Source of the DNA: a virus
Reading direction: 5' to 3' (one strand)
DNA length: 24,168 nucleotides
IMG/VR virus record: IMGVR_UViG_3300037475_000235
Span: 1 to 24,168 of that record
The first letter of the stretch is position 1; each line of letters begins with the position of its first letter. A program made the translations under genes and the position numbers. The notes below the pieces were generated by a model. The model was given only the letters and a program-made list of their open reading frames with translations. It had not been told where the DNA came from and did no database searches. Below, piece after piece: positions 970 through 19,865 of this stretch.

Positions 970-3138
970 ATGGCTGAAGAAACTCCAGTAGATGGAACTA
1001 CTAAAGAAAATCTAGACAACATTACTGGTTCAGCTAATGATGCTAAAGATGCATTTAGTTTTCTAGGAGTAATGACTGAAAGTGTTAAAAATCAATTAAG
1101 TGCATTTAATGATAAGGTTACTTCTTTAAAAAATAATTTTGATGATAATCAAAGAACATTAGATAATCAAACAAATGCTTTTGGATTATTAAGTGTTGCA
1201 ATATTAGGTGTTAGAAAATCATTTGATAATTTAAATGGAATTGATACTAGTCAATTAAGTACATTTTCTGATCAAATTAAAGATATTCAAGATGTAATTA
1301 CAAAAGATTCATCTTTAGATACTATGGCAAAAAAATCTGTTGCTTTAGCACAAGCTTTAGGTTTACCAACAGAGATGGCAAAACAAGGTTTTGGAGCCAT
1401 TTTAAATTATGCAAATAATCTTGCTACTAGTGCTGATAATGCTCTTAGATTACAAAATGCTTATATTCAGTTGTCAGCAAAGACTGGTAGTTTAAATGAT
1501 GTATATAGCGCTGCCGGTCCAAATTTAAGTAACATCAATGCTTTATTAGAGAAACAAGACAAATTAATTTCATCATCTGTTATTGCTACTGGTGTAGCTC
1601 CAGAAGCTGTTAGACAATATTATTCTCAATTAGGAGCTATTCCACAAGCTTTAAACTCAGTTGTTACAGGAGCTGATGGTGCGGGATCATCTGTTAGTTT
1701 ATTAACTGCTACAATGCAATTAGCATCAGGTTCAGGAAGAAAATATTCTGAAATTGTTGATGACTTAAGATCAGCATTTAGAGACTATAATATTACTGGT
1801 GATGAAGCATTAAAGTTTACTGCTAGAATGGGTGAACTTTCAGGTAAATTTGGAGTAGAATTAAGTGATGTCCGCGATGCACTTCGTAGTACTGCAAGTA
1901 ACTTTGCTATGTTTGGAAATGAAGCTGAAGGCGCTGCTGGTATGATGAATCAATATTTGGGAGCTTTAAAAGCAACTGGTGTTAGTGGTACAGTTGCAGT
2001 AGGTATTGTGCAAAATATGACAGGTGGAATCAAAGACTTGACACTTGCTCAAAAGGGATTTTTATCTGCTCAAACTGGAGGTCCTGGTGGGCTTATGGGT
2101 GCCTTTCAAATTGAAAAAGAACTTAGAGAAGGAAAGATTGACAAAGTATTTGACCGCGTTAGACAGACTATGTCAAAACAATTTGGAAACATTGTTAGTT
2201 TAGAGGAAGCATCTCAAAGTCAAAGCGCTGCCGCCCAATTAACTAAACAAGTTATGATGCTTCGTCAAGGACCATTAGGACAATTTGCCAAGAGCGATCA
2301 AGAAGCCATTAGAATTTTAGAGAGCTTTAAAGCAACTAATTCTGGTAAAGCTGTTACTCCATTAAGTGAAACAGTTACATCAGATGTACAAGCCGCTGGC
2401 GTTGATGTAAATAAAAAATCATATACAGAACTAACCAGAATTCGTTCTCTTATTGAGTCCGCTAGAGGAACTGCTAATATAGCTAATTTAGGATTTATGC
2501 AAGATAGTTTTGCAGCTGGTACTGGTCAATTGAATCCTGAAGTAGATACAGCTTCAGGTATGAGAGATAATATTAATCAAACTATGAAGCTAGCTGGCAA
2601 ACAAGGCGCTACAGCAGCTGAAGGTACAGCTGGGGCTTTGGCTGGAGAGCAACTTATAAATAAAGCTGGACAATCTGTTCATGAAACAGCCAATAATATT
2701 AGAGATTTTACAAATCAATTTGGAGAAAGTATGAGGGCTCCAATTGATAATGCTAAAAGACTAATGAATCAAAATAAATCTAATGAATTGGCTGCTGAAG
2801 CCAGCAAAAAACAATATAATGAATCTATGGCGGCAGGAGGATTAGTAGCTACTGCAAGTGAAGGAGCTATATCAGAACCAACTAATATAGCGGAAGCAAT
2901 TTCTTCAACATCAGCCGGGCAATTAGGCGGTGTCGCAATACAAGCAGCTAATATTGTTAAAAAAACTAAACCAACAGATGTGTCAATGCCCGGACAAACT
3001 ATAACCGCTAATTCTCAACAAGAATTAAATGGACAAATAACCGTTCATGTAGAAGGATTTTGTTTGGATTGTGGAGATAAGATTAAGGGAAGTAATCAGA
3101 GTTTTTCTGTTAACACGGCGCAGAAAGCAAAAAAATAA
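970..3138 (+). CDS. Probable tape measure protein
   Basis: 722 aa, alanine-, glutamine- and serine-rich and mostly helical, lying directly after the frameshifting chaperone pair. That position, the composition and the following tube/hub gene are the reasons for the call; no family signature was recognised with certainty. Tape measure proteins fill the tail tube, set tail length and leave with the DNA. At about 0.15 nm per residue a protein of this size would suit a tail of roughly 100-110 nm (inference). Residues about 1-95 show coiled-coil-like spacing. A Gly-rich turn lies near 365-380. The C-terminus is less helical and contains the only two cysteines, Cys698 and Cys701, in FCLDCGDKIKG. 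No long membrane segment was seen. The start has a good AAGGA site at 959-963 inside the end of the previous gene. Confidence 0.72.
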   Translation: MAEETPVDGTTKENLDNITGSANDAKDAFSFLGVMTESVKNQLSAFNDKVTSLKNNFDDNQRTLDNQTNAFGLLSVAILGVRKSFDNLNGIDTSQLSTFSDQIKDIQDVITKDSSLDTMAKKSVALAQALGLPTEMAKQGFGAILNYANNLATSADNALRLQNAYIQLSAKTGSLNDVYSAAGPNLSNINALLEKQDKLISSSVIATGVAPEAVRQYYSQLGAIPQALNSVVTGADGAGSSVSLLTATMQLASGSGRKYSEIVDDLRSAFRDYNITGDEALKFTARMGELSGKFGVELSDVRDALRSTASNFAMFGNEAEGAAGMMNQYLGALKATGVSGTVAVGIVQNMTGGIKDLTLAQKGFLSAQTGGPGGLMGAFQIEKELREGKIDKVFDRVRQTMSKQFGNIVSLEEASQSQSAAAQLTKQVMMLRQGPLGQFAKSDQEAIRILESFKATNSGKAVTPLSETVTSDVQAAGVDVNKKSYTELTRIRSLIESARGTANIANLGFMQDSFAAGTGQLNPEVDTASGMRDNINQTMKLAGKQGATAAEGTAGALAGEQLINKAGQSVHETANNIRDFTNQFGESMRAPIDNAKRLMNQNKSNELAAEASKKQYNESMAAGGLVATASEGAISEPTNIAEAISSTSAGQLGGVAIQAANIVKKTKPTDVSMPGQTITANSQQELNGQITVHVEGFCLDCGDKIKGSNQSFSVNTAQKAKK

Positions 3139-4040: not shown

Positions 4041-7000
4041 ATGGCAGATTTTTTAGCAACCTTAGGTCAGCAATTGAACAATCAGTTTTCTGTAGGAGAA
4101 AACACTAATAATTCATTAGATGCAGTTGTTGATGGGAAAAATGTAAAATATGGTAGTTTAGGAGATTTATCTAAACGTATAGATCAATCTGCAGAGCGAA
4201 GATATGTCGAAGAAGGTTATCTTAGAAAAGATCCATATAATACTGATCCAAAACAATTTGAAATATTAATGCAAGAACCTAGCGCAACGGTATTAATAAA
4301 AAAGAAGATGTTTTCTTCTATTGGAGAAAATTTTCGTCCAGATTTTATGGATATTGATGAAAAGCTTTATTATAAAACTATTAGAATACTATTCCAAAAT
4401 AAGTGCCGTCAGGTAGCAGCTTTAGAAAAGCTTTCTAAAATTCAAAAAATTACATCTGCAGTAGGTAATGTTTCAGATCAATTGATTCCAATTATTATTA
4501 GTTTAACAGATGATGCAGGAAGCGGATTTAGTGTTGGTGGTCCGGACTTATTTGGCGGCATTAATTCTAATGGTGATATTAGTAATTTTACTAAAGTTGT
4601 AGATAGAATTAGAAGAGTATATGCTTTTAATACTAGTGCAGAAACTACTAGTTGGATCACTGATAGTACTAATTTATTTCAATCGCAATTTGGTCAAGGT
4701 ACAGGAGTTATAGAGATAACTGGATTTACTAATTTAAATACTAGTGTCGGATTAGATATTAGACAGCCTGGAAATTTTGGATTAACTATTTCAGATCCAT
4801 ATGAAGCTATGTTGATTACAGAATATGATATTGAAAGAGCTATTAGTGATGCTACTAATTCTTATTATAATCACAAAATTTTTCAATTTGGAAAAGAAAA
4901 CGCTGATCAATTAATAAATGATTTAAAAGTTAGACTTAATCAATTAAGGTCTGATAGAAAAGCTAGTCCAATTTCTTTTAGAGTTTCTTCTGATACTTTG
5001 TTGGGTAAAAGAGTTGTAGCTATTTTAGATAGAATAGGAACGACAATTCCATTTAATTATAACTCTGGGTTTGGTGGTATTGGTTCTGGAGTTACAGTTG
5101 CAGATGAATATTTAAAAGGAGGAGCAATTGCCGGTTATGATGGTTTAGAAGTTAGCACTCAACCTACTTTTGGATCTAATAGTAATGTTAAGAAATTATT
5201 TCCAGATTCTGAATTGGCAGTATTTAAAAGATTAGTAACTAATATTTTTAATAAGTTACAACTGGAAGCTAATTCTAATAATACATTTCAGCTTAGTAAT
5301 CAAAAAACAAATTATGCTAGACGCAAGTTAAGACAAAATTTTGCAGGTAAACTTATCATTCAACCAATGGATACTTGTCATATTTATTTAAATTCTAAAA
5401 GTAGATATGATAGTAAATTACTATCTGGTCTTAATAATATGTTTACTGGTGCTGGCATTCTTCAAAACTTAAATAAAACATTTACAGATTTTAAGAATGC
5501 GGCAGATACATTATTTAATCCTGCTGGAAGTGTTAATTTTCAATTGGAAAAAACTGCATTTGTTGGTCCTGACTTTCCAAATTATCTTTGGGCTTTGATT
5601 AGAAGTCAATTTATAACAGAGCGAGAAGGTACACATATATTTGCTGGTGTTGTAGAAACAGCCGCAGATAATTGGTCAGATGGTAAATTTATGGTTGATG
5701 TTAGAGGTAATGATAATACTACCTATTTTGATATGGGTAAAGTTAATTTTAAACCTGGAATTGATACTTTTAATGGTTCTTTATTTGATCCATTAACTCC
5801 ATTTAAAACTAGATTTGACAGAATAAGTAGTAATGCTAAAGATGAAACCCCAGAATTATTAGATGAAAATAAATATATACTTGGAACATCTCAAGATACT
5901 GACTCACCAATAGTTAAATTTAAGCTTGGACCTAATGCTGGGCAAAGAGCCACACAAGACAATTATGTTCAAGATAGAAGTATTGATGATACTACTGGAT
6001 TCATTACTAAAACATTCTATGCGCCAGATGGTTTGGTTTATAAATGGAAAGAAGGAATTGGAGTATTAGTTCAATTTGGAAATTCGTTAGATTTAAATGA
6101 TCCTACTAGAGTCGGGGCGCCCTCAATTACTAAAGAGCCATTCGCTGGTCAAGATGTTATGAATGTCTTGTCACTATTGATTACTGGACAGCCATATAAC
6201 TTTGCTAATTATTGGAAAGCTGTTGCTAATTTTGACGGTTTTGCAAGAGATCCTCAAAGCCAACAAGATTCTGCTTATTCATATTATGATTCTTTAAAGA
6301 GCGACTTAAATAAAAATAATATTATTTGGGGCAATTTTATTCCATTTAAGAATTTGGTAATGGATGAACAATCTTATGCTCAAGTATTACAGGCTCAATT
6401 TAAAGCCCAACAAAGAAATGCAGACTTAGATTCTAAATTACAAAAATTAGCAGACTTAAGAAATAAATCTTTATTAATGGGCGCCGGCGCCGATCTTTTT
6501 AAACAAAATGATGCAAGCTATTCATCAGATCAGGCTAAAATAAATAACCAAGCTACCACACTATCTAAAGAAATTAATGATATTATAGCAGAAATGCAAA
6601 GAGCAGACAAAAGCTTTTCATCATTAAAAAATATTGGTAATGACACCTCTATTGATTTTAATCAATTTATTGATTCAAGTAAAGCTAGTAAACAAGCTTC
6701 AGATCCAAATATTAGAAAACTTGTTAGAAGACAAATTAATAATTTAACTAGACGTATGTCTTATAATGTTAGGGGAAATGAAGATAAAAATTTATTTATT
6801 GTAGATGACTTTTATGACAAAGACTATGATATTTTGGCTTATGAACAATCATTAACGGATGGATTAAAATTATATAATAATGAGTTTACAAGTGTAAGAG
6901 ATAAAATTGCAGCTACAGCTGATTTATTAAATTTAGAAGTTTTTTGTGATACTCAAGGACATATTAGAGTACGTCCACCACAATATAATAGAATGCCAAG

Positions 7001-8975
7001 TACTATCTTTTACAAGATGATGTATTTGAAAAAATCTTACAATATACAATTATTTCCACAATTTTTAGAAGATTTATTTACAGATCAAATTACTGCTTTG
7101 AAACAAAGGCTAGAAATTTTAGAAGATCAAATTAGATTAGATTGTTCGGTTTTAGGAATTAATGATGATGATTCTGCAGTAGATTTTATTTTAAATGGCG
7201 CCACAGAAAATACTGGTGATACTTTTAGCTTTTTATCAGAAGAAGATAGTGGGCAAATTAGTAATATTGCAAATCTATTAAAACAAGCAAATCCAGATCA
7301 AAGAGATGCTGAACAAGATAATACATTTTCTTCCTTAGAAAAACAAGTAAACTCTACTAAAGATATTTTTTCTAATACACAAAGGGCTAAGGTCATTCTA
7401 GATTCATTAGAAAAAAATAAATTAAATCAAGCAGGCTATAGTATTAATAACGTTGCAGCATTCGAGGCTAATAATAGAGTTAATTATTTAATTTCTAGAA
7501 TACAAACTGTTTCAGGTCAAAAAATACCTAAGTCATCTTACTTAGTAATAGTACAAAGTGTCGCTGTTAATGATGTAACAATTCCCATTGCTAAGACAAT
7601 AGATATTTTTAAAATAACAACTGAATTAGCTGATAAAATAAGAGAGCGCCAAAAAATAATGAAACTATTTTACAGCGCTGTTAAAAATTCTGCAGAATAT
7701 AAATCTTTAGATTCAGATCAAGATAGTGGAAACGCTCTATTTATGCCTGGTAATTTTAGTAATTCTAATATTCCAGAAGTGTTTGAGCACATGATTGAGG
7801 ATGAGTCTTATGATGATTATGGTCCAGGCTCTGGCGCTAGATTTATTATCAAAAGAAGTCAAATATTAAATTTAAGTATAACTGAATCTCCACCTAGATT
7901 TAATATGGTTGAAGTACAAGGAGTGCTTAATCCATTAGCTCCTAATGCTTTACCTGCAGGATTAAATTCCTTTCCTGGTCAAGGAAATGGTATGGTAACT
8001 GCAGCTGCTGTAGATTATGACATGTGGAGAAATTATGGTCTAAGACAAGGTAGTCCAATTAACGTTCCATTTCTTAGTGATCCTAATAATCAATGTGCGC
8101 CATATGCCAGTATGATTTTAAGTCGTGCTCGTAGAGAAGTATTAAGAGGCAGCTTAACCATTTCTGGAAATGAATTTATGCAACCAGGTGAAGTTGTTTA
8201 TCTAGAAGATAGAGGACTATTATTTTATGTTAATTCAGTCAGACATGCATATGCACAAGGCAGCTCATTTACAACTACATTAGAGTTAACTTATGGACAT
8301 ACTATGGGAGATTATATTCCAGTACCATTAGATGTTATTGGAAAACTAATTTATAACAATAAAGACTCATCCAGCTTTATAGTACAGAGACAATCTAATT
8401 CATCCAGTGATTCTAATGTTGGAGTTGTTCAAAGAGATCCTTCTAAACCTTCAAGTCAAGTAATTAATGATGGAGAAAAAGATACACCTACAACTTCTTT
8501 TATGGCAGCAAATACTCAGACATTAAATAATATACTTTATACTTCTGCATATTTAATTAATGCTAATAATACAAAAGGCAATACAATTAAAGCTAGTGTG
8601 GAATTAAGAGTATATTATGATGATTCTACTCCTTTAAATAGTGACATAATTACATTTGCATCTTCAGTTAAGGATTCACTTACTATTGAAGGTATGGGAC
8701 CAAAACAAGTAGCTACCGCTAATACTGGTTCTGCTAGAAACGTTACATTAGATAAAAATGATGTTATAGTTGTGTTTGTTAATATGAGTGATGATGATGA
8801 TAGAAGATCTCCATCACAAAAGGCAATTGATGCTGCTCGTAATCAAATAGCAACTTCAAGCAATCCTGGAAATACTAGTAAAGATAAAATTAGACAATCT
8901 TTATTTAATTATATAGTAGATTGCTGGGTTAAATTCGAGCCAGTATCTCAAGAAGAAGCGAACGGTACCACTTAA
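4041..8975 (+). CDS. Baseplate hub protein (gp27 / gpD-like), very large
   Basis: 1644 aa, against about 390 for T4 gp27 and P2 gpD. Hub features appear in order. Near residues 430-460, LIIQPMDTCHIYLNSK is a typical hub strand. At about 510-590, ALIRSQFITEREGTHIFAGVV and MVDVRGNDNTTYFDMG resemble the first hub barrel. At about 940-990, EFTSVRDKIAATADLLNLEVF leads to IRVRPPQYNRMPS, as in large myophage hubs. At about 1326-1433, SGNEFMQPGEVVYLEDRG and FYVNSVRHAYAQGSSFTTTL are a hub C-terminal barrel. Insertions include a helical, coiled-coil-like stretch at about 774-870 and another at about 1015-1230. Residues 1440-1644 form a Ser-rich linker and an unrecognised domain. Hubs trimerise, joining the tube to the spike. 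The stop overlaps the spike gene's ATG by one base, implying translational coupling. Its own start has only a weak GGA site. Confidence 0.75.
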   Translation: MADFLATLGQQLNNQFSVGENTNNSLDAVVDGKNVKYGSLGDLSKRIDQSAERRYVEEGYLRKDPYNTDPKQFEILMQEPSATVLIKKKMFSSIGENFRPDFMDIDEKLYYKTIRILFQNKCRQVAALEKLSKIQKITSAVGNVSDQLIPIIISLTDDAGSGFSVGGPDLFGGINSNGDISNFTKVVDRIRRVYAFNTSAETTSWITDSTNLFQSQFGQGTGVIEITGFTNLNTSVGLDIRQPGNFGLTISDPYEAMLITEYDIERAISDATNSYYNHKIFQFGKENADQLINDLKVRLNQLRSDRKASPISFRVSSDTLLGKRVVAILDRIGTTIPFNYNSGFGGIGSGVTVADEYLKGGAIAGYDGLEVSTQPTFGSNSNVKKLFPDSELAVFKRLVTNIFNKLQLEANSNNTFQLSNQKTNYARRKLRQNFAGKLIIQPMDTCHIYLNSKSRYDSKLLSGLNNMFTGAGILQNLNKTFTDFKNAADTLFNPAGSVNFQLEKTAFVGPDFPNYLWALIRSQFITEREGTHIFAGVVETAADNWSDGKFMVDVRGNDNTTYFDMGKVNFKPGIDTFNGSLFDPLTPFKTRFDRISSNAKDETPELLDENKYILGTSQDTDSPIVKFKLGPNAGQRATQDNYVQDRSIDDTTGFITKTFYAPDGLVYKWKEGIGVLVQFGNSLDLNDPTRVGAPSITKEPFAGQDVMNVLSLLITGQPYNFANYWKAVANFDGFARDPQSQQDSAYSYYDSLKSDLNKNNIIWGNFIPFKNLVMDEQSYAQVLQAQFKAQQRNADLDSKLQKLADLRNKSLLMGAGADLFKQNDASYSSDQAKINNQATTLSKEINDIIAEMQRADKSFSSLKNIGNDTSIDFNQFIDSSKASKQASDPNIRKLVRRQINNLTRRMSYNVRGNEDKNLFIVDDFYDKDYDILAYEQSLTDGLKLYNNEFTSVRDKIAATADLLNLEVFCDTQGHIRVRPPQYNRMPSTIFYKMMYLKKSYNIQLFPQFLEDLFTDQITALKQRLEILEDQIRLDCSVLGINDDDSAVDFILNGATENTGDTFSFLSEEDSGQISNIANLLKQANPDQRDAEQDNTFSSLEKQVNSTKDIFSNTQRAKVILDSLEKNKLNQAGYSINNVAAFEANNRVNYLISRIQTVSGQKIPKSSYLVIVQSVAVNDVTIPIAKTIDIFKITTELADKIRERQKIMKLFYSAVKNSAEYKSLDSDQDSGNALFMPGNFSNSNIPEVFEHMIEDESYDDYGPGSGARFIIKRSQILNLSITESPPRFNMVEVQGVLNPLAPNALPAGLNSFPGQGNGMVTAAAVDYDMWRNYGLRQGSPINVPFLSDPNNQCAPYASMILSRARREVLRGSLTISGNEFMQPGEVVYLEDRGLLFYVNSVRHAYAQGSSFTTTLELTYGHTMGDYIPVPLDVIGKLIYNNKDSSSFIVQRQSNSSSDSNVGVVQRDPSKPSSQVINDGEKDTPTTSFMAANTQTLNNILYTSAYLINANNTKGNTIKASVELRVYYDDSTPLNSDIITFASSVKDSLTIEGMGPKQVATANTGSARNVTLDKNDVIVVFVNMSDDDDRRSPSQKAIDAARNQIATSSNPGNTSKDKIRQSLFNYIVDCWVKFEPVSQEEANGTT

Positions 8976-10984
8976 TGACTAATCCTAATATTTTCAACGA
9001 AGAAGTTGGCCTTCTTAGAAGAGGAGCTATTGAAAGCTTTGATGAGGAGAGGGGCATCATTAAAGTTAAATTAAATAATGCTGCTTCAGGGAGTAATAAT
9101 CCTTCAGTTGAAATTCCTTCACCACATGCATTATTTTATAACAATGGTTTATTTATTGGAACAAGACCAAAAGCAGGCACGCCTATTGTAGTTAGTCAGG
9201 GTAGTGGTGGACAATATTTTTTCGTATCATTTTTAGCAGAAAATTTGCCAATAGTTCCCAGCTTGACTTTAGATGAATTATTAATTCAATCTAATGATAA
9301 TTCTTTTATTAAACTAGATACAAAAACTAATATTAATATTGGCTCTAACAATAATAGAGTTCATATTAATACTGATGAAAATTATATTAGTACCAATTTT
9401 TATAATCAATTTGATTTTACGCAAGCATCTCGTAAAATTGAAGGCGTAGTTAAAAGAGATAAGATTTTAAACACAAATTATGATCAAACATTTAAATTAG
9501 AAAATGATGATTATAATTCAAGGTTTTTTACTATTGGACTTGATCCTTCAACATCTCCAAATTCTAGTGTAACTGGCTCATCTAAGAATCCACCATTTGT
9601 AGAGCAAAGAGAAATAACTTATGAGTTTCAATATTTATCTGATATTGATAATGATTTAAATGAGTCTATTTTATATAATGGTGGAGGTACTAATAATCAA
9701 AGTTATATTCTACCAAATCGTCGCAAAAGTAGAGCAGACACTTTAAGTCTTACTTTAGCCTCACCAAATTATCTAATTGAAACTGTTAAAGGTACAGTTA
9801 TAGATATTTTTGGTAACATTTTAGATATTAACAGAAATCCATTATCTGTTGGAGTAGATCAAAATACAATTAGAGCAGATAAAACAAGTGATAAAGCAAA
9901 AGCTTTTTTAAAAATTAAAGAAATTGAAAGAAAAAGTTTAGCTTATCATTTTGAAATAAATGCTCGTAAAGACTTAACTGGTCAAAATGGTAAAGTTACA
10001 CTACCAGATATTAATTCTAATAGTGATTATGCTCGCAGCCGCAGCCGTTTCTTTTTAGATATTGATAAAGAAGGTCAATTTAAAATGAACGTCCCAGCCT
10101 CTAGTGAGACTGGTAACATTCCACTACTAACTAGATACGAAAATTATTCTAGCTTTGGTCCAGAAGATAATAATAATCCTAATAAGCTAATTTTTAGAGA
10201 TGATAATTTAGATATCTTTCATGATAGTTTTGCTGCTCCAAAAGCAACTGCCATAAACAGTGGGTTTTCTTATACTAATGATAGGGGCTCTATTCAAATT
10301 AAAGATGGAAATGCAGAAGCATCTCCAATTGATAGAATAACTCAGTCACATATTAAACATGGTACAGCATATCATGATTTATTACAAACATGTTATGCTC
10401 AGCAAAATAATGATTTCATTAATTATCAAGCCGGCACCAGCCAGAATGTTACAGTAAATATAAATGATATTCCAGAATTAACTAAAGTTGTTTCTAATGT
10501 TATTAATATTTCTGGAGAAAATGCGAATGCTGGTGGGCGTAGTGGTTCAATTAATTTCGACGGCTCTGTTGAAATGAATATTGGAGCTAATACAATAGAT
10601 CGTCAATCATTATGGCTTGATACTGCCGGTGGATTAGTGGCTAATATTGGAAGAGATTTAACGAATAGAAGTGCTGTTGTCTCTTTGAATGGTGACTTAA
10701 TAATTCAGGTAGGTGGATTTGGTGTAGTAGGCGACAGTAGGTTCGTTAAAGAAAATAATGGCAGTATTGGTGCTGTATTAGATTTAAGAATATTTACTGA
10801 TGGTGGATATGTTCATATGATTAGAGCAGATAAAAATGGCATAACTATTATGACTCCAGGTAATTTAGCAGTCCATGCTAAAGGAAATATGAAGTTTTCT
10901 AGCGATGCTAATATTGAAATGGATTGTGAAACACTCACCTTACAAGGGCGTATGGTTCAAAAGGTTTTTGGTGGAAGTATTTAA
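8975..10984 (+). CDS. Baseplate central spike protein (gp5 / gpV-like), no lysozyme domain
   Basis: 669 aa. Residues about 10-90 read as the OB fold of spike proteins: RGAIESFDEERGIIKVKL, then GTRPKAGTPIVVSQGSGGQ and FFVSFLAEN. The middle contains FFLDIDKEGQFKMNVPASSE at about 356-375, followed by GNIPLLTRYENYSS. From about 520 the chain becomes short repeated strands with Gly/Asn/Asp turns (GSINFDGSVEMNIGAN, NLAVHAKGNMKFSSDANIEM), as in a trimeric beta-helix needle that pierces the outer membrane or wall. No lysozyme or peptidase motif was found, unlike T4 gp5, and no HxH iron-binding tip like that of P2 gpV is visible near the C-terminus. The tip could be a separate PAAR protein elsewhere. 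The ATG overlaps the hub stop (TAATG). Confidence 0.77.
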   Translation: MTNPNIFNEEVGLLRRGAIESFDEERGIIKVKLNNAASGSNNPSVEIPSPHALFYNNGLFIGTRPKAGTPIVVSQGSGGQYFFVSFLAENLPIVPSLTLDELLIQSNDNSFIKLDTKTNINIGSNNNRVHINTDENYISTNFYNQFDFTQASRKIEGVVKRDKILNTNYDQTFKLENDDYNSRFFTIGLDPSTSPNSSVTGSSKNPPFVEQREITYEFQYLSDIDNDLNESILYNGGGTNNQSYILPNRRKSRADTLSLTLASPNYLIETVKGTVIDIFGNILDINRNPLSVGVDQNTIRADKTSDKAKAFLKIKEIERKSLAYHFEINARKDLTGQNGKVTLPDINSNSDYARSRSRFFLDIDKEGQFKMNVPASSETGNIPLLTRYENYSSFGPEDNNNPNKLIFRDDNLDIFHDSFAAPKATAINSGFSYTNDRGSIQIKDGNAEASPIDRITQSHIKHGTAYHDLLQTCYAQQNNDFINYQAGTSQNVTVNINDIPELTKVVSNVINISGENANAGGRSGSINFDGSVEMNIGANTIDRQSLWLDTAGGLVANIGRDLTNRSAVVSLNGDLIIQVGGFGVVGDSRFVKENNGSIGAVLDLRIFTDGGYVHMIRADKNGITIMTPGNLAVHAKGNMKFSSDANIEMDCETLTLQGRMVQKVFGGSI

Positions 10985-10995
10985 AGGAATATAAT

Positions 10996-11352
10996 ATGAA
11001 GAAATTAAATCCCGTTGTTTATGAAAAATTAATTTTGCAAGCAGAAGAAGCTAAAGAGCAAAATATGGTTAAGTTGTCTTCCGCTATTTTAGGGGCTTTA
11101 ACGGCATATCCGGAAAATGAAGAAGTGACGTATTCTTCAGGAGAGCTAAGTCATGATGTTTATCAAGATTTATGGAAAGTCGCTACTAATGTAATTAAAT
11201 ATTATAATTTAGAAAGCGTTGATGCAGAAAAAGTAAATGAAACAATTGAAATTTTATCTGGAAAGTTTATTTCTGAGTTGGAACATACTTTAGGTGTACC
11301 TGAAGGAACAATTGGACCTTTAGAAGATAAATTACCTGGTGAATCCAAATAA
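10996..11352 (+). CDS. Small helical protein of unknown function in baseplate operon
   Basis: 118 aa, acidic, with no cysteine. The first 95 residues are predicted by eye to be helical (YEKLILQAEEAKEQNM, DLWKVATNVIKYYNLE, VNETIEILSGKFISELEHTL). The tail is Pro/Gly-rich (GVPEGTIGPLEDKLPGESK). I recognise no family. The start is well supported by AAAGGA at 10983-10988, 7 bases before the ATG and overlapping the spike stop. A small helical protein beside the spike gene could be an assembly chaperone for the spike or for the hydrophobic protein encoded next, or a minor structural subunit. This is inference from position only. Confidence 0.7.
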   Translation: MKKLNPVVYEKLILQAEEAKEQNMVKLSSAILGALTAYPENEEVTYSSGELSHDVYQDLWKVATNVIKYYNLESVDAEKVNETIEILSGKFISELEHTLGVPEGTIGPLEDKLPGESK

Positions 11353-11400: not shown

Positions 11401-13605
11401 ATGAGTCCCTGCAGCCCAAGCGACGTTTTCATACAAATACCTGATGGTCCTTCTGGACCTCCAATCCCAGGTTTCGGGGTTCCTTTTGCCTTAAAGATTC
11501 CTGATATTTCTCCAATACCAGATGGGTTTCCGGAAGATCTATTAGATTTATTTGATAAATTTCAATTTCTAATTCCACCAGGTGTATTAAAGCCAACCCT
11601 AAATCCTAATTTTAGTAAAGATATTTTTGACACCATCATGTCAATGTTGGATAAGTTTTTTCCATTTTTGATGCTGTATAAATTCTTTTTACCAGTATTA
11701 AATTTAATTATTTGTATTATTGAGGTCCTTTGTGCCATTCCTAATCCATTTAAACTTATAAGAGCTATGAGAAGATTATTTAGAAATTGTATCCCAGCAT
11801 TCTTAAATCTTTTCCCAATTTTTGCTCTTATAATTATGATTATTTCTTTGCTATTATTATTATTAGCATTAATTGAATATATAATCTCTCAAATATTAAA
11901 ATTAATAGAAGCTTTACTTAGAAATATTAATGCTCTAGTAAAATCTTTTAGTGATGGAGATCAAAATTCTGTTTTGGCTATTGCTAAAAAGCTTGGTAGT
12001 TTACTTTGTATTTTCCAAAACTTATTTGTATTATTATCTATTTTTAATATTATTATTGAAGTAATTAGAAATATGTTGAGCTTAAGTTTCTCTATTCCGC
12101 CATGTGATGATAGTGGAACGGGAGATGCTGATGGATGCTGTACACCAGATGTTTGTCCAACTATTGTGAAGTCTCCATATACTAGAGCTTCTGGTAACGT
12201 ACAATATCTAAATCAATTATCACTTAGACCTGCTACTCCAATTCCAGGATTAACTAATTTTGGAACTGTTGTTAGGCAAGAAGGAATTGTTATTTATGAT
12301 CCGGCTCAAGAAATTGGGCAGGCTTTCATTAACATTGTTGATGGATATGATGTTCCACTTCAAGATTCTTCAGGATACAAATCTAAGCCAGTATTTTTTC
12401 CAACAGATGTAAATTATAATAGTGCTACATCACCTCGCCAAGCTGCTTACACAGTTGATTTGAGATTATATTATAATCCTGCTAACTGGGGTCGCACTAA
12501 TGAAGTTGGAGGATCATCAAGATTCATTAAATTTACCAACTGTATTGTTACTGATACTCCAACTAGAACATACACCAGAAATGATGGAACTGTCATTACA
12601 GTTAATGATGGTGTTTTGCCATTAGCTGGCGGTTTGGGCTATGAAGATGATGGAGTAACTATTCTTAGAGGATTTGGTTCTGATGGAATTACTCCAATAT
12701 CTAACCAAGCTACTTTAGAAAATTTTATTCATAAAGCTGCTCGTTACTCAGTATCAGGAAACATAGATCCAGTTCCTGCTGATGGATATGTATTTGATCA
12801 AGTTCAATATACATTTAGACCAAATCTAGAAACCTTATTAAACAAACAATTAATTACACTTGGGTGTGAGCCTTCATTAGCTTTGAATAAAGCATTTATT
12901 AATAGCGCCTTTGCCGGTGATGCAGGTATTAAAGGACAATTATTAGGAAATCTAGTTAATGGAGTAAATGGTAAAGTATTTCCTAATCCAAATGCCACAT
13001 TGGATTGTTTGCAAGCTGCATTGTCTGCCCTTAGAAGCAATTTAACTACAGCTGGTGTAGCTCAATTTCAAGCAGCAACAGCTATTTGTTTGGGTAAATT
13101 ACAATCAGATACAAAAAGTGCTCTAGTTGATTTAGTAAATTTAGGATATGATGCTTGTGGAAGTGATTTTAATTTAAATCCACCAAAACAATTCACCAGC
13201 AAACCAATTGCAGTTAAAGTTAACATTAAAGAAAGAAATGGTATTTCTGTTACTGCTGGTATGCCACAAGACATTGGTGATATATTGGCTAAAAATGTCA
13301 AAGCTCATATTACTTTTGGTAAAATTAGTAATTTTATTTATGATGGTTATCAAGCTTTTACTGCAGATATCACAAGTCAATTACCTGGTAAGGGAACCAT
13401 AATGATATCTTTTGATAATAATATTTTATGTACTAATACTATTCCAGCTGATAATACAGTTGATCCAACTCATACTCTGCAAGCTATTGATTATCAATTC
13501 GTTTACTCTCCAGTATCTGGTGCTGGTGCAGTACCAACTGCTGATGGTGATTCTGAAGGAGTCCCATACAGAGATGGTGAAGATATATCCAGGGAAGGTA
13601 ATTAA
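11401..13605 (+). CDS. Hydrophobic multi-segment baseplate-cassette protein, unknown function
   Basis: 734 aa, no family recognised. Residues 10-70 are Pro-rich with repeated Ile-Pro-Asp (IPDGPSG, IPDISPIPDG). Residues 86-113, 131-168 and 199-224 are extremely hydrophobic (for example FALIIMIISLLLLLLALIEY) and look like three or four membrane helices separated by short basic loops (RAMRRLFRN). At 235-252 a cysteine cluster (CDDSG, DGCCTPDVC) marks the change to a soluble beta-rich region. The last part (about 590-720) resembles a beta-sandwich. I count 15 cysteines, many compared with its neighbours. There is no signal peptide pattern: the N-terminus is Pro-rich rather than basic-hydrophobic. 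The position between spike and wedge genes suggests a virion component, perhaps one entering the host membrane during injection. The stop overlaps the next gene's ATG, implying coupled translation. The start follows an AGAG-type site. Confidence 0.75.
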   Translation: MSPCSPSDVFIQIPDGPSGPPIPGFGVPFALKIPDISPIPDGFPEDLLDLFDKFQFLIPPGVLKPTLNPNFSKDIFDTIMSMLDKFFPFLMLYKFFLPVLNLIICIIEVLCAIPNPFKLIRAMRRLFRNCIPAFLNLFPIFALIIMIISLLLLLLALIEYIISQILKLIEALLRNINALVKSFSDGDQNSVLAIAKKLGSLLCIFQNLFVLLSIFNIIIEVIRNMLSLSFSIPPCDDSGTGDADGCCTPDVCPTIVKSPYTRASGNVQYLNQLSLRPATPIPGLTNFGTVVRQEGIVIYDPAQEIGQAFINIVDGYDVPLQDSSGYKSKPVFFPTDVNYNSATSPRQAAYTVDLRLYYNPANWGRTNEVGGSSRFIKFTNCIVTDTPTRTYTRNDGTVITVNDGVLPLAGGLGYEDDGVTILRGFGSDGITPISNQATLENFIHKAARYSVSGNIDPVPADGYVFDQVQYTFRPNLETLLNKQLITLGCEPSLALNKAFINSAFAGDAGIKGQLLGNLVNGVNGKVFPNPNATLDCLQAALSALRSNLTTAGVAQFQAATAICLGKLQSDTKSALVDLVNLGYDACGSDFNLNPPKQFTSKPIAVKVNIKERNGISVTAGMPQDIGDILAKNVKAHITFGKISNFIYDGYQAFTADITSQLPGKGTIMISFDNNILCTNTIPADNTVDPTHTLQAIDYQFVYSPVSGAGAVPTADGDSEGVPYRDGEDISREGN

Positions 13606-15263
13606 TGGCTAATATTCCTAATCAATCTAACTATCAAGATTCTCAAAATTTTGATATTGATATTGAGAGTATATACACTGATTTTATTAAAGAAATTGAT
13701 GCAAATAGAAGCATTGTTAATACTTCAAATCAAGGCAATCAAATATTTCTTAAGGTTCTTAAAAAACAAACAATTACTAGTTTAGCTAAATTAGTTAAGG
13801 TAGAAGATACTCCACAGGAAAGCCGCTGTCATGCATTTTTTAGACTAATTGGATTTCCTGTAGTATCTAAAGATTTAAGATACTACAATCCAGGATTTGA
13901 TATAATTAAAGATCCTGATAGAGAAATAACTTTAGATCTTAAAATTGATATTGCCAATAACCCATTTGACGGATTTGTTAGTTTATCTTTTAGAAGAGAA
14001 AGTTACGTTAACTCTATTTTACAAACCTTCTCTCAAAATAATACCATAACATCTAGTGTTTTATCTTTATCATCTAGTACTCAAGTTCGTCCGTTCGCGG
14101 CACCAGTAAAAAGTTCAGATGCATTTGACACTAAGCCAGAGAATCAATCATATACTGCTGATTTTAAAGGACAAATAGGAAATTTTGATAGTGTAAAACT
14201 AACAGAGTATCAAGATGAAAATGGAAATAAACCAATTCTATCTCAATTAAATCAAACTAGATTTCATTTCATTAAACCATTTATTGTTGATCCTAAAATT
14301 GATTTTACTGTGGCACCTTCTTCTAGAAAAGTTGCGATTCCATTTGCTCTTAATAAAAGCAATTTATTGATTGCAGAAAATACTTTTGTTAAAAGACCTT
14401 TGTTAGAAAAAGTAATTAGAGATAGATTTTCTGTGGAAAATAGTGCTAATTTAGGTACTGCCGACACCTCAATAAAAAATTATATTTTAAGTATTCCTGC
14501 AGTTCAGGATGAAGCTTTAATTAAGCAAATGACATCAAATGTATATAAGCTTTCCGAGCAACAACAATTTGCAAAATATATAAATATTATTAGAGCAATG
14601 TGCAAAAAACTAGTTGAGGCTCAACTAGTTATACAGAGAGTGCAATCATTATATTATTGGTTGCCTGTCCCATCTAGTACTGGACCAGAAGGGGGCAATA
14701 CAATTAAAGATATTATTATTTCTAGTACTTTACCAAAAGATTTTATTACGATTTTTGATAAATCATTAATTGATAAAGTTTTAAAACAAATTTCAAATCA
14801 ATTTAATATTCAAACTTCTGATGTTAATGGAATTCCTGATGTTGGCGGATTTGCTTTTGATATTTTTACAAATACTTTTGATAATGAAACAAGCAATTCT
14901 TTGGGCGATGTAGCTACTCAAAGCGTTAATACTGCTGTCAAAAATAGAAAACAACATATGAATAGTGCTGGCGCAGCCCTAAGAACTATAGAAATTATAA
15001 TGGGTGAATTTAGTGGTTTAGGGCTATGTGACATTATTGCAGTTATGGGTGCCCTTTATATTATGCCCAAAGAGTCTCTTTTAGGTTTTCTAGACCAAGA
15101 TTCCTTTACAAGAATGATTAATTCTGTAGATTATATTCCAGATACTGTTGAACGTAATGATATTACTGGTTCTATGGATTCTTTCTTGGAAAATGTTAAA
15201 GGATATTATAATTTAATGGATAAAATTTATCAAGACCTAAAGAACAATAACGGCTTATCTTAA
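13605..15263 (+). CDS. Baseplate-cassette protein of unknown function (552 aa)
   Basis: 552 aa, no family recognised. The first 270 residues mix helix and strand (HAFFRLIGFPVVSKDLRYYN near 75-95). The middle, about 290-420, is largely helical. The C-terminal third contains a hydrophobic helical stretch at about 455-495 (GLGLCDIIAVMGALYIMPKE). The ATG overlaps the stop of the hydrophobic 734-aa gene (TAATG) behind an AAGG site at 13596-13599. The two products are therefore probably made in fixed ratio and may bind one another. The gene precedes the gp25-type wedge gene by 57 bases. A structural role in the baseplate centre or wedge is likely from context; T4 gp53-like or P2-like wedge proteins are smaller and do not obviously match. 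Confidence 0.7.
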   Translation: MANIPNQSNYQDSQNFDIDIESIYTDFIKEIDANRSIVNTSNQGNQIFLKVLKKQTITSLAKLVKVEDTPQESRCHAFFRLIGFPVVSKDLRYYNPGFDIIKDPDREITLDLKIDIANNPFDGFVSLSFRRESYVNSILQTFSQNNTITSSVLSLSSSTQVRPFAAPVKSSDAFDTKPENQSYTADFKGQIGNFDSVKLTEYQDENGNKPILSQLNQTRFHFIKPFIVDPKIDFTVAPSSRKVAIPFALNKSNLLIAENTFVKRPLLEKVIRDRFSVENSANLGTADTSIKNYILSIPAVQDEALIKQMTSNVYKLSEQQQFAKYINIIRAMCKKLVEAQLVIQRVQSLYYWLPVPSSTGPEGGNTIKDIIISSTLPKDFITIFDKSLIDKVLKQISNQFNIQTSDVNGIPDVGGFAFDIFTNTFDNETSNSLGDVATQSVNTAVKNRKQHMNSAGAALRTIEIIMGEFSGLGLCDIIAVMGALYIMPKESLLGFLDQDSFTRMINSVDYIPDTVERNDITGSMDSFLENVKGYYNLMDKIYQDLKNNNGLS

Positions 15264-15320: not shown

Positions 15321-15752
15321 ATGTCTTTTGATCTAAAATTAGAGGGTGGAGACCTAGTAGTTAAAACCGGGCAACTTCAAACTGTTGTTGATAGCGAAAA
15401 GCTAATTCAAGACATTTTGAAAATGTGTTTAACTACAGCAGGCACAAATCCATTGCATCCGTGGTATGGATCTTTTATTTCTAGAACTATAGTAGGAAAT
15501 CCTATGTATAGCTCTATTTTAGTTCAAATTGCTAAATCTCAGCTTAATACTGCCTTAGAGAATTTAAAAAATTTACAGGGCATTCAAGTTAAATCTTTCC
15601 AAAGGGTTAGTGCTGACGAACAAATCAGTGCTATTCTGGATATATCTATTATAAGAAATCAATTAGATCCAAGACTATTTGATGTTAAAATAAGAGCTTT
15701 ATCTAAAGGACAAAAACCAATAACTACAGCTTTTAGAGTTTCCACTATATAA
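15321..15752 (+). CDS. Baseplate wedge / sheath initiator protein, gp25 / gpW-like
   Basis: 143 aa, the normal length for the GPW/gp25 family (about 110-145). The pattern is typical: an N-terminal strand pair (GGDLVVKTGQLQTVVDSEKL), a helix (IQDILKMCLTTA), a conserved loop ending in a Trp-Tyr-Gly motif (GTNPLHPWYGS at 41-51), a long helix (about 62-82), then beta-strands. T4 gp25 is a wedge protein with the fold of a sheath subunit; it gives the sheath its first attachment strand, and the related gpW of P2 does the same. It lies 15 bases upstream of the J-like gene, the conserved W-J / 25-6 gene order. The family usually has an acidic-arginine motif in the central loop; here the loop is Asn-Pro-Leu-His-Pro instead. 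This is one of the firmest calls in the window. Confidence 0.88.
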   Translation: MSFDLKLEGGDLVVKTGQLQTVVDSEKLIQDILKMCLTTAGTNPLHPWYGSFISRTIVGNPMYSSILVQIAKSQLNTALENLKNLQGIQVKSFQRVSADEQISAILDISIIRNQLDPRLFDVKIRALSKGQKPITTAFRVSTI

Positions 15753-15767
15753 GCATTAGGATGAGAC

Positions 15768-18700
15768 ATGGTAACAATTCGTAGCGTTAATGAAATAATC
15801 TTAAGCCTAATAGACTTTTATAGAGTTGCTCAGCCCGATCTTGATACAAAACCAGGCACAATTGCTAGAGATTTATTTGTTGATGGTCCATCTAGTCAAT
15901 TATCTTTATTATATGATGAATTGTCCAGTGTATCAAGCCAACAATCTATGAGATTGGTTATTGGTACTGATTTAGATAAGCTTGCTAAAAACTTTGGTGT
16001 TATTAGAAAACAAGCTACACCCTCAACTGGAATAGCATTATTGACATTTTCTGCGATTAATTCCACTATTAATATTAATAAAGGTGATGTTGTAGTAGCT
16101 TCTAATGGATTTTCTTTTACTATATCTAATGGTATTTCTGTTTCATCATCCTCAACAAATTTTTATCGTTCAGTAGCATCTAAATTTAGAGATCAATTGG
16201 ATTTTGCTGGAATTTCTGACGAATATGCGGTTGAAGTTACTGTATCGGCATCTACCGCTGGTAGTGCTGGAAATATTGGATCATATTCACTTAGTAGAAC
16301 TAATATACCAGGAGTATCTAATATAACTAACATTAATCCATTTAAAGGCGGTAATGATCAAGAGAATGATTCTACCTTCAGAACCCGCGTATTATCATCT
16401 TTCAGTGGATCAAGCGTAGGAACATCTTTGGGTTATTTAAACGTAGCCTTAGGTACTACAGGGGTTTCTGATGCTCAAGTTATTGAGCCAGGTGATGTTT
16501 TGATGATTAGAGATGGAACTGTAGTTTCTGTTGCTGCAGATGGAGCCAGGACTATTATTTCAGAAGGTTCCGGGGGCAAAGTAGATGTAGTTGTATTAGG
16601 ATCTAACCTTGTTGAAAATACCGATAGTTTTATTTATAGAGATAAGAGCAATAATAACGATCCTTCAAGCTCTAAAAATGATGTTGTTTTAGGTCAAATT
16701 GCTGCCGATGCCGGAAAAACTATTAACAGAAAAAGAATTGATGATATTAAAAATGGCGTTTTGCCAGCACAACCAGTAGATACTTTACTTCAAATAACAG
16801 GTTCAGTTAGTGGGGCTAATTTTGCCGAAAAGAGTATTGACTCTTATGGTAGAGTTTCTGGAAACTTTGAGTTATTAAAAGATACTGGAGTATATGGAGG
16901 AAGTCCATTTGGTTTTGATACATTTCATTGGGTTTCTGACAGGGTGTCTGATTTTAGTGAAGATAAAATTAAGGGTCAATTTAATGGACAAGATGCTGTT
17001 ACATTTACCGATGTATTGGGCATTTCAAATGTTCAACAAAATTTAGCTATTACCAATGAAAATAGTTTAGTTACTTCTGATAGATCTATTATTCAATTAC
17101 TGCATACACCAGTTATAAATGTAACAAGAGTATTTAATGTTAATACTGGTGAGCGTTATATTATTACTAATCAAAATTTAGATCAAACTGGTACATTTAA
17201 TACTACAGGAAGAATTCAAATATCAGGAAATACATTGCCTTCTGCATCTGATGTATTACAAGTAGATTATAGTTGGATTGTTAATTATGATCAATATTCT
17301 GATTTTGATGGTTTAGTTGGAACTTCTAATCCAAGATCTGTAACAGATAGTATTGATTGGGGTTATGCATCTATGGTTCGTGATGAAAGAATAGTTTTTG
17401 ATTTAAGTGTTGGAAATAACTTCTTTCAAGGAACTGCAACACAACCAATTGCAAGCGTATTAAGTGCAAAAAAATTCTTAGAGCTTGATGGTACAGTTGT
17501 TCAAGTAACATCTGGAACATTCGTTAATAGGTTGTCTGTCGTGGTTGATAAGCTTCCAACATTAACTGCCAGTGTAGAGTCAGTTACTTTAAAAAATACA
17601 AATGTAGAGCTTTATGATACGGCTCAAGGAAATTCTGTTGTATCCACTTCTACTGAAGTAGTTGGAATAGAAGTTCTTTATGTTACAACTATTATATTAG
17701 CTTCTGATACTGTTGCAGCAGTTGGTGATAGAGTCACTGTTATTTTAAACAGTACAGACACTTATTCATCAGATGTAGTTTCTGGCAGCAGTAATGGTAA
17801 TCAAATTACTATTCCATCTTCTTTAATTGATACAACTGCCACATCGATTACATTAAGAGTAACATATGTTTCTGCAGTATCTGATTTAATTTCTACTTCA
17901 ACCACTTCTTTACCAGCCAGTAGAAATGGTAATGGATTTAATTTATTAGATAATAATGGATTTAGTAATTTTAGTCAAGTTAATATGGCTAGAAGAGAAC
18001 ATCAAACTGTTCAAAAAAATCTTAGCAATCAATATTATGTAGAAATTAATTTGCCAATAGCTGATTTCACATTAGATGTAGATCAAGTAATTGCTGTAGT
18101 TAGATTGTCAGACAATTTAGAATTGTGGAATTCTAGCAACACAGGCTCAATAGCCAATGGGAGTTCCGGAAACTATCAAATTATATTAAATGGTCTTAAT
18201 ACTCCAGCCATTGGAGATCGTGCTCTTATAGTTTATTATGCTACTGATTCTAGAAAGTTCCAACCATTTAGCTATAGTAACAATTTGATTAAAAGTAAAA
18301 TTAATGTATTGCAAACTAATACCTCTAGTACATTTAAAGTAAATTTAAATGAATTTACTAATCAAGGCTCAGGATTAACATTTACAGTTATAGAACCTAA
18401 CTCAGATATAGTTTTATATAGTGTTATAGATGGATATTTAACTAATACCGTTGCTGGAGTAGCAACGGTTTCAAGTCCAACAGTTAATTTTTCTGCTACC
18501 ACCGACATGTTATACAAAAAAGTTAGAATTACTGGAGCAACAGTTCCTAATAATAATGGAACTTATGATATAACTGATTTCAATCAACTAACAAATAAAA
18601 TAACAATTACTAACGTATTAAGTAATATCACAGCCGATCAAATTTCTATAATAAGAATATTAGATGGACAAGAATTATGGAATTATTCTGGAACTATTGA

Positions 18701-19865
18701 TGTTACAAATAATAAACTTGTTTTTTCAACCACAACATCTAGTCATGTTAATGATGGCGTCTTTGTTATGTATTTTAATTATAACAATCTAAGAAAAGCA
18801 CCGACTCGTATTACAGGTAACATTGTAGATCAAGTTAATAATACAGGAGTCGTAACTGTAAGTGGCACTTCCATATTTGTTGCTAAAGACATTATATTTA
18901 CCGCCACTAATACTGGTCTTAAATTAAACTTATCTGAAGCATTGAGAAAAGCCTTAAATATAAGTTCTACTGTTGCACTTTCCAACAATTATAAAATTGG
19001 TAAAGTCATTAAAGTAGAGAAGGTTGTTACAGCTAGCTCCTCTGATGATACTGTTTTAAGTGTTTTGGCTACTTACGATGTTAAAAATACAACAATTCAA
19101 AATAATTTATATTATGCTGATGAAATGTTAGGAGATCTAACATTACAAAATTTGGATTTCATCTTGCCTTCAACGCAAAATAATACTTTAGATGTTGAAA
19201 CTCATAATTTACCTAAGTTGGGTGATAAAATTAGAATAACTTTCTACTATACTGTTGATAATGATTTTGAAAACTTATCATATACTAGAAATGGAACGTT
19301 ATATACTAATAAGAAGTTTGCTTTAATAAATAAAATATATGTATCAAGCGGATTTAAGTCATCTCAATCCACTAAATTTACGGCAACTTCTTTTACACAA
19401 CCAAGTTTAGGTGCCCGCTACAAAGTATTTTATGATTACTTGGCACCAAAACAAAATGAAAGAATTGTAGTTAAATATAACTATAATAAATTAATTGGCG
19501 ACGTTACTTTTAACATAGAAGACACTAGACCAATTAATGCTGACGTTTTAGCAAGAGAAGCAAAATTAATACAACTTGATCTTACAATGAATGTTGTAAT
19601 TGACGCTGACTATAAGAGTTCAACAACTACTGTGCTACAAAACTTAAGAGATAAATTAACAACAGCATTAACTACTACAACTTTAGGAAGTGTAGTTGAT
19701 TCTGTAACATTAATCAACATTGCCCAAGCTGTTACGGGTATTGCTAGAGCAAGAATATTATATTTTAACAAGGTCGGCGGCATAGGACAAGTACTCAAAA
19801 TTCAAGCACAAAAAGATGAATATTTTGCTCCAAATACTATAATAATTAATACTGAGACAAGATAA
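15768..19865 (+). CDS. Baseplate wedge protein, J / gp6-like, with large insertion
   Basis: 1365 aa; P2 gpJ is about 300 aa and T4 gp6 about 660. The N-terminus (DTKPGTIARDLFVDGPSSQ at 26-44) and residues about 190-245 (NPFKGGNDQENDSTFRTRVL, then a Gly-rich turn and GVSDAQVIEPGD) match the N-terminal and core parts of Baseplate_J. The C-terminus, about 1250-1340 (RPINADVLAREAKLIQLDL, LQNLRDKLTTAL, TLINIAQAVTGIARARI), matches the C-terminal part. About 800 residues of Thr/Ser/Asn-rich beta-strand modules lie between them. In contractile tails this protein dimerises to form the continuous wedge ring that opens when the sheath contracts. It follows the gp25-like gene by 15 bases with an AGG-type site and precedes the next gene by one base. 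Confidence 0.87.
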   Translation: MVTIRSVNEIILSLIDFYRVAQPDLDTKPGTIARDLFVDGPSSQLSLLYDELSSVSSQQSMRLVIGTDLDKLAKNFGVIRKQATPSTGIALLTFSAINSTININKGDVVVASNGFSFTISNGISVSSSSTNFYRSVASKFRDQLDFAGISDEYAVEVTVSASTAGSAGNIGSYSLSRTNIPGVSNITNINPFKGGNDQENDSTFRTRVLSSFSGSSVGTSLGYLNVALGTTGVSDAQVIEPGDVLMIRDGTVVSVAADGARTIISEGSGGKVDVVVLGSNLVENTDSFIYRDKSNNNDPSSSKNDVVLGQIAADAGKTINRKRIDDIKNGVLPAQPVDTLLQITGSVSGANFAEKSIDSYGRVSGNFELLKDTGVYGGSPFGFDTFHWVSDRVSDFSEDKIKGQFNGQDAVTFTDVLGISNVQQNLAITNENSLVTSDRSIIQLLHTPVINVTRVFNVNTGERYIITNQNLDQTGTFNTTGRIQISGNTLPSASDVLQVDYSWIVNYDQYSDFDGLVGTSNPRSVTDSIDWGYASMVRDERIVFDLSVGNNFFQGTATQPIASVLSAKKFLELDGTVVQVTSGTFVNRLSVVVDKLPTLTASVESVTLKNTNVELYDTAQGNSVVSTSTEVVGIEVLYVTTIILASDTVAAVGDRVTVILNSTDTYSSDVVSGSSNGNQITIPSSLIDTTATSITLRVTYVSAVSDLISTSTTSLPASRNGNGFNLLDNNGFSNFSQVNMARREHQTVQKNLSNQYYVEINLPIADFTLDVDQVIAVVRLSDNLELWNSSNTGSIANGSSGNYQIILNGLNTPAIGDRALIVYYATDSRKFQPFSYSNNLIKSKINVLQTNTSSTFKVNLNEFTNQGSGLTFTVIEPNSDIVLYSVIDGYLTNTVAGVATVSSPTVNFSATTDMLYKKVRITGATVPNNNGTYDITDFNQLTNKITITNVLSNITADQISIIRILDGQELWNYSGTIDVTNNKLVFSTTTSSHVNDGVFVMYFNYNNLRKAPTRITGNIVDQVNNTGVVTVSGTSIFVAKDIIFTATNTGLKLNLSEALRKALNISSTVALSNNYKIGKVIKVEKVVTASSSDDTVLSVLATYDVKNTTIQNNLYYADEMLGDLTLQNLDFILPSTQNNTLDVETHNLPKLGDKIRITFYYTVDNDFENLSYTRNGTLYTNKKFALINKIYVSSGFKSSQSTKFTATSFTQPSLGARYKVFYDYLAPKQNERIVVKYNYNKLIGDVTFNIEDTRPINADVLAREAKLIQLDLTMNVVIDADYKSSTTTVLQNLRDKLTTALTTTTLGSVVDSVTLINIAQAVTGIARARILYFNKVGGIGQVLKIQAQKDEYFAPNTIIINTETR
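17050..19500 (+). other. Beta-module insertion inside the J-like protein
   Basis: Between the J-type halves, residues about 430-1240 consist of strand-rich segments with two copies of a recognisable module: RLSDNLELWNSS at 779-790 and RILDGQELWNYSG at 963-975. Each is followed after 25-40 residues by an alternating hydrophobic strand (DRALIVYYATD, DGVFVMYFNYN). Another module, HTPVINVTRVFNVNTGERY, lies at 446-464. Boundaries are approximate. The insertion probably projects from the wedge ring as decoration or fibre-docking domains. Confidence 0.55.

Follow-up and report, generated by a model that had tools for sequence, protein, structure and literature searches.

The baseplate operon of the virus record IMGVR_UViG_3300037475_000235, of which a stretch of 24,168 nt (the window) was examined, encodes a protein of 734 amino acids with three membrane-type hydrophobic segments (11401..13605, + strand; ORF and family alignment). 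The sequence-only reading had placed a membrane-type protein within the baseplate operon, and this is well supported: the gene is present in 77/77 spike loci with room for it, its product is the sole protein of the window with multiple hydrophobic peaks, and such helices are missing from the tape measure. As a family the protein is new; membrane helices in contractile tails as such are already known. The tentative interpretation is that it sits in the baseplate and, when the tail contracts, brings membrane helices to the cytoplasmic membrane of the host; the chances of this are rated a little short of even.

Upstream of the 734-aa gene lie a separate gene for a tape-measure candidate of 722 aa (970..3138, +; sub-threshold TMP_3 match), a gene for a tail-tube-initiator-like protein, a 1644-aa hub candidate without a convincing family match (4041-8975), a 669-aa gpV/gp5-like spike (8975..10984, +) and a 118-aa helical protein (10996..11352, +) that occurs in most, not all, relatives. 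The names spike and hub were given from gene order and sequence features, without profile matches. Downstream follow an ORF for a 552-aa protein (13605..15263, +), a homologue of gp25, the sheath initiator or baseplate wedge protein (15321..15752, +), and a homologue of the gpJ/gp6-like baseplate wedge (Baseplate_J; 15768..19865, +). The position between spike and wedge genes that had been read from the DNA is thus borne out, upstream by features and gene order and downstream by the gp25 and gpJ homologues. The order initiator, hub, spike, (118 aa), 734-aa protein, 552-aa protein, gp25 and gpJ is constant in relatives with 77% to ~31% identity. Base 13605 belongs to both the stop of the 734-aa gene and the start of the 552-aa gene, as the earlier description of a stop/start overlap implied, and the same one-base overlap recurs in 48 of 69 relatives.

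Several neighbouring genes have features of their own. Two short ORFs at 71-966 precede the tape-measure candidate, at the usual place of tail assembly chaperones in other phages. The 1644-aa protein in the hub position is kept in all relatives that hold this region. The 552-aa protein has a conserved stretch of marginal hydrophobicity near its C-terminus (IMGEFSGLGLCDIIAVMGALYIM, residues ~460-487). At 1365 aa, the gpJ homologue extends far beyond its Baseplate_J match, which covers residues 68-258. Its sole match in INPHARED was gp188 of Bacillus phage G, with ~32% identity over 21% of the gpJ length (residues 2-288).

In the viral collection the family was found at 31 loci in a first scan and at 97 in a second, profile-based scan, on contigs of up to 480 kb. 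One more copy, in the same baseplate gene order, was found on a contig of 383 kb from a Chitinophagales MAG. This contig probably belongs to a huge phage that was binned together with its possible host, which provides only a weak hint at the hosts of the family. A search with the spike returned 161 loci, and among the best 80 of these the 734-aa protein was found in 77. The three remaining loci end at most 600 bases from the spike, so that no true absence was seen in the best 80 of 161 and all 77 loci with room carry the gene; more distant spikes, outside the best 80, could differ. Of six large contigs, five have sheath-like matches in the vicinity of the locus; these all fall under the Pfam cut-off and are consistent with contractile tails. 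No match was obtained in INPHARED, neither by tblastn with the window protein and two divergent members nor by searches with the spike and with the hub. The annotation of the Bacillus phage G tail region contains no gene labelled as an equivalent of the 734-aa protein, and no description of the family was found in the literature on membrane helices in phage baseplate proteins. Profile searches against PHROGs, Pfam and NCBIfam assigned no family to it.

The 734-aa protein begins with a predicted disordered, acidic tail (residues 1-70, 11401..11610, +) that includes a near-invariant C4 and is proline-rich, as the translated ORF had suggested. Its three strongly hydrophobic segments are located at residues 95-113, 136-158 and 197-219, with Kyte-Doolittle peaks of 2.6, 3.4 and 2.4 in 19-residue windows starting at residues 95, 140 and 201. 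The apparent insertion free energies are ~+0.8, -4.35 and +0.5 kcal/mol, respectively; these values come from an approximate formula, and only their contrast is usable. The strongest 21-residue segment scored -3.97, compared with -3.08 for the best among 300 composition-preserving shuffles. Segment 1 forms the end of a long helix that starts with an amphipathic part at 71-94 (residues 71-113, 11611..11739, +). It is followed by a basic, highly conserved loop with N115-P116, C130, P132 and F134-L135 (residues 114-135, 11740..11805, +). Segment 2 (136-162) continues into an amphipathic helix at 163-186 (residues 136-185, 11806..11955, +), and segment 3 contains near-invariant K197, C203, Q206 and N207 (residues 197-219, 11989..12057, +). 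Hydrophobic blocks had previously been placed at residues 86-113, 131-168 and 199-224; their number holds, but these limits are slightly wide, with 71-94 and 163-186 being amphipathic. The basic loops noted at the same time were recovered after segment 1, where the window protein has five basic residues (K118, R121, R124, R125, R128) and the family a median net charge of +2.

This architecture is shared throughout the family. At least three Kyte-Doolittle peaks of at least 1.6 were present in 74/74 full-length ORFs from the spike search and in 73/73 family sequences, and in the window the 734-aa protein alone has more than one peak. By insertion energy, exactly three segments were counted in 66 of 72 relatives, two in three and four in three. 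In a 73-row alignment, made of the window protein and 72 unique full-length relatives, conservation is highest in the helical region, where majority identity is 0.67-0.79 versus 0.46-0.61 elsewhere; the folded C-terminal domains reach 0.51-0.56. AlphaFold2 (29 sequences) predicted long helices at 71-112, 116-136, 139-185 and 188-226, followed by a beta-rich half, with a moderate pLDDT of ~64-77 for the helices and an overall pTM of 0.48 for the full-length model. The segment pattern with its flanking amphipathic helices resembles a membrane module with interfacial helices, but a helix buried among other subunits would look similar.

It is rather unlikely, though conceivable, that the helices instead pack tightly at the centre of a baseplate bundle of three or six subunits and never enter lipid. 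The strong conservation of the helical region, with invariant P, C, E, N and K residues, is what a specific packed core would show, and the long continuous helices predicted at 71-112, 139-185 and 188-226 could build such a bundle. The analysis of helix faces across the family yields a conserved polar stripe in segment 1 (P98/N101/C105/E108/A112), as expected for a packing or pore-lining face. Segments 2 (136-162) and 3 (197-219) have no polar face, and their least hydrophobic 100-degree faces are still at +1.2 and +1.0 on the Kyte-Doolittle scale. A soluble bundle would therefore need subunits all around these two segments. Moreover, no soluble homologue of the protein was found by PDB profile and structure searches.

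How DNA crosses the cytoplasmic membrane is poorly resolved in contractile phages, and the best candidates are membrane segments of tape measures. In the diffocin tape measure CD1366, five membrane helices are predicted per chain, and a fifteen-helix inner-membrane pore was proposed to form after contraction; similar segments occur in some phage tape measures, with little or none predicted in some Gram-negative phages, T4 and T5 (PMC10996793). Like the tape measures of diffocin (CD1366), lactococcal phage P2 and Pam3, the 734-aa protein would be tail-borne with several predicted membrane helices, whereas its helices are encoded in a separate post-spike gene and its C-terminal part consists of a beta-rich domain plus an Ig-like domain (PMC10996793). 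The 734-aa family combines several conserved membrane-type helices with a place in the tail operon. Identity with the tape measure itself was rejected, as the protein is encoded after the spike, and the tape-measure position and the TMP_3 match belong to the gene at 970-3138. Separate candidates of 717-797 aa hold the tape-measure position in five huge relatives, and no membrane-type segment was detected in these or in the candidate of the window. The insertion cut-off was not reached by any homologous upstream tail gene of these five relatives, although a few upstream ORFs showed one or two Kyte-Doolittle peaks. A division of labour between a tape measure and a separate helix protein would agree with this arrangement.

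A further comparison is the tail knob protein gp9 of phi29, which, as Xu et al. reportedly described in 2016, has pore-forming loops, a hydrophobic, membrane-active stretch that the folded tail-tip protein retains until DNA release. It differs in being a podovirus knob with a hydrophobic loop rather than three helices, and the two are likened by description only; no sequence relation between them is known.

The large beta-rich C-terminal region described earlier resolves in models into two domains. A mixed beta/helical middle domain (residues 252-585, 12154..13155, +) harbors C536/C563 and was predicted with an AlphaFold2 pLDDT of 91; this value was obtained for the domain modelled alone from 70 sequences, with a pTM of 0.73. 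Against solved folds, its best Foldseek result had an E of 0.005 with a TM of 0.15, and its best VIA-align result, a Z of 6.4, involved helices only. Colicin E9/E3, the top Foldseek row, was rejected as a relative given this TM of 0.15 and a resemblance confined to a long helix. The modelled domain is therefore without a convincing solved relative in Foldseek and VIA-align, which is no proof of a new fold. The second domain (residues 582-706, 13144..13518, +) is an Ig-like domain of invasin/filamin type that contains C586/C677. It superposes on invasin 1cwv with a Z of 13.0 and an rmsd of 2.3 over 98 residues, and on several other Ig-like folds with Z of 9-12. A fold search of BFVD returned Ig-like and low-score rows and nothing else, and a PDB profile search with the 734-aa protein gave only clumping factor at chance level (E 0.2). 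At the extreme C-terminus, after a variable stretch, R724 and D728 are conserved (residues 723-728, 13567-13584), and the motif reads RRD-x2-D in most relatives.

The combination of membrane helices with an Ig-like domain could also suit a host-directed tail-tip membrane protein that has no part in DNA entry and, for example, depolarizes the host or excludes superinfecting phages. A huge phage could plausibly carry such an additional activity in its virion. However, accessory functions are usually patchy in distribution, whereas none of the 77 testable loci lacks the gene or departs from the core baseplate order; this role is very improbable.

The protein contains 15 cysteines, and each of its neighbours 0-6. 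C4, C105, C111, C130, C203, C235, C246, C247, C252 and C489 are each found in at least 72 of the 73 rows. Four of them form the linker C-x10-CC-x4-C (C235, C246, C247, C252; residues 235-252, 12103..12156, +), the CC-containing cluster that had been reported at these residues; it is invariant in the 73 rows except for one S at C247. Two further pairs vary in concert. C536 and C563 occur together in 68 rows and are jointly missing from five; for C586 and C677 the corresponding numbers are 43 and 30, and neither pair showed a discordant row (n=73). On the tree the two pairs change two and three times, jointly in every independent contrast, although these five joint changes are too few for a sign test to reach significance. 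The covariation is suggestive of disulfides, which would fit a part of the protein facing the periplasm or the exterior of the released particle.

Three spans would place the N- and C-terminal parts on opposite sides of a membrane. For the C-terminal domain the signals conflict: should all three segments span, the basic loop at 114-135 would put it in the cytoplasm, while the paired cysteines hint at a position outside the cytoplasm. The topology may differ between the producing cell and the state after delivery.

The strong hydrophobicity of the segments makes insertion into the membrane of the producing cell likely, at the site of synthesis, and this favors a role in assembly. The protein would then be a membrane-anchored assembly or positioning factor in the inner membrane of the infected cell, whose C-terminal domain docks the growing baseplate, and delivery to the next host would not be needed. 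The 552-aa gene is likely translationally coupled to the 734-aa gene, which would suit this role, and a cellular precedent exists in Cis13 of the thylakoid-anchored contractile injection system of Anabaena, a baseplate-associated protein whose transmembrane segment anchors the machine in the producing cell (PMC8894136). Compared by description, Cis13 has one predicted helix in a tail-fibre-like trimer, whereas the 734-aa protein has three N-terminal segments followed by the middle and Ig-like domains, and thus does not show the features of a Cis13-type anchor. Streptomyces CisA, a membrane protein needed for firing, has a disordered N-terminus and is encoded directly after baseplate genes (PMC12237407). 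It differs in being single-span, in having a C-terminal domain like periplasmic substrate-binding domains and in being located, as described, outside the particle. Hence both cellular proteins have one predicted transmembrane segment compared with three here. In addition, a phage must leave the cell, so that a permanent anchor would require a release step, and the Ig-like C-terminal domain and the strict neighbourhood to the spike look structural. An assembly function of this kind is rated as rather unlikely, though it is the main rival reading.

Delivery of membrane helices is favored because the gene order is constant, the gene is present at every one of the 77 testable spike loci, the helical region is the best conserved part and the tape measure is free of such segments; further points in its favor are the polar stripe of segment 1 beside two segments without a polar face, the diffocin precedent and the covarying cysteines. 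The moderate confidence of the predicted helices, the contradictory topology signals and the tape measures of T4 and T5, with little or no predicted membrane region, count against it. Both roles proposed in the sequence-only reading, a virion-borne membrane insertion or channel component and a protein whose helices stay buried until contraction, are compatible with these observations, so that this reading is supported in part. According to the preferred interpretation, huge phages with contractile tails, forming a large clade, would possess in the 734-aa protein a dedicated structural component of their baseplate. The middle and Ig-like domains, which make up the folded C-terminal two thirds, would fix it in the baseplate close to the spike, and the N-terminal third would represent a membrane-active module of three hydrophobic helices with amphipathic ones alongside. 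This module would stay shielded inside the virion until the sheath contracts and the spike is released, which would expose it and let the helices insert into the cytoplasmic membrane of the host. There, several copies may line or stabilize a passage for DNA entry. Virion presence, shielding, insertion, oligomerization and channel function are properties that we infer. A more specific version, in which the membrane channel has been split from the tape measure and the three-helix module of a disulfide-stabilized baseplate protein is sprung into the membrane to form the DNA entry pore, is possible but doubtful.

A conserved, separately encoded tail-tip protein with membrane helices, in genomes of up to ~480 kb, would offer a defined and expressible candidate for DNA passage and marks a baseplate part that is missing from the T4 and P2 models. 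As the models of Pfam, PHROGs and NCBIfam miss the protein, its gene may serve as a hallmark of this clade of huge phages. It may be through this protein that the bacterial membrane is opened to the incoming DNA.
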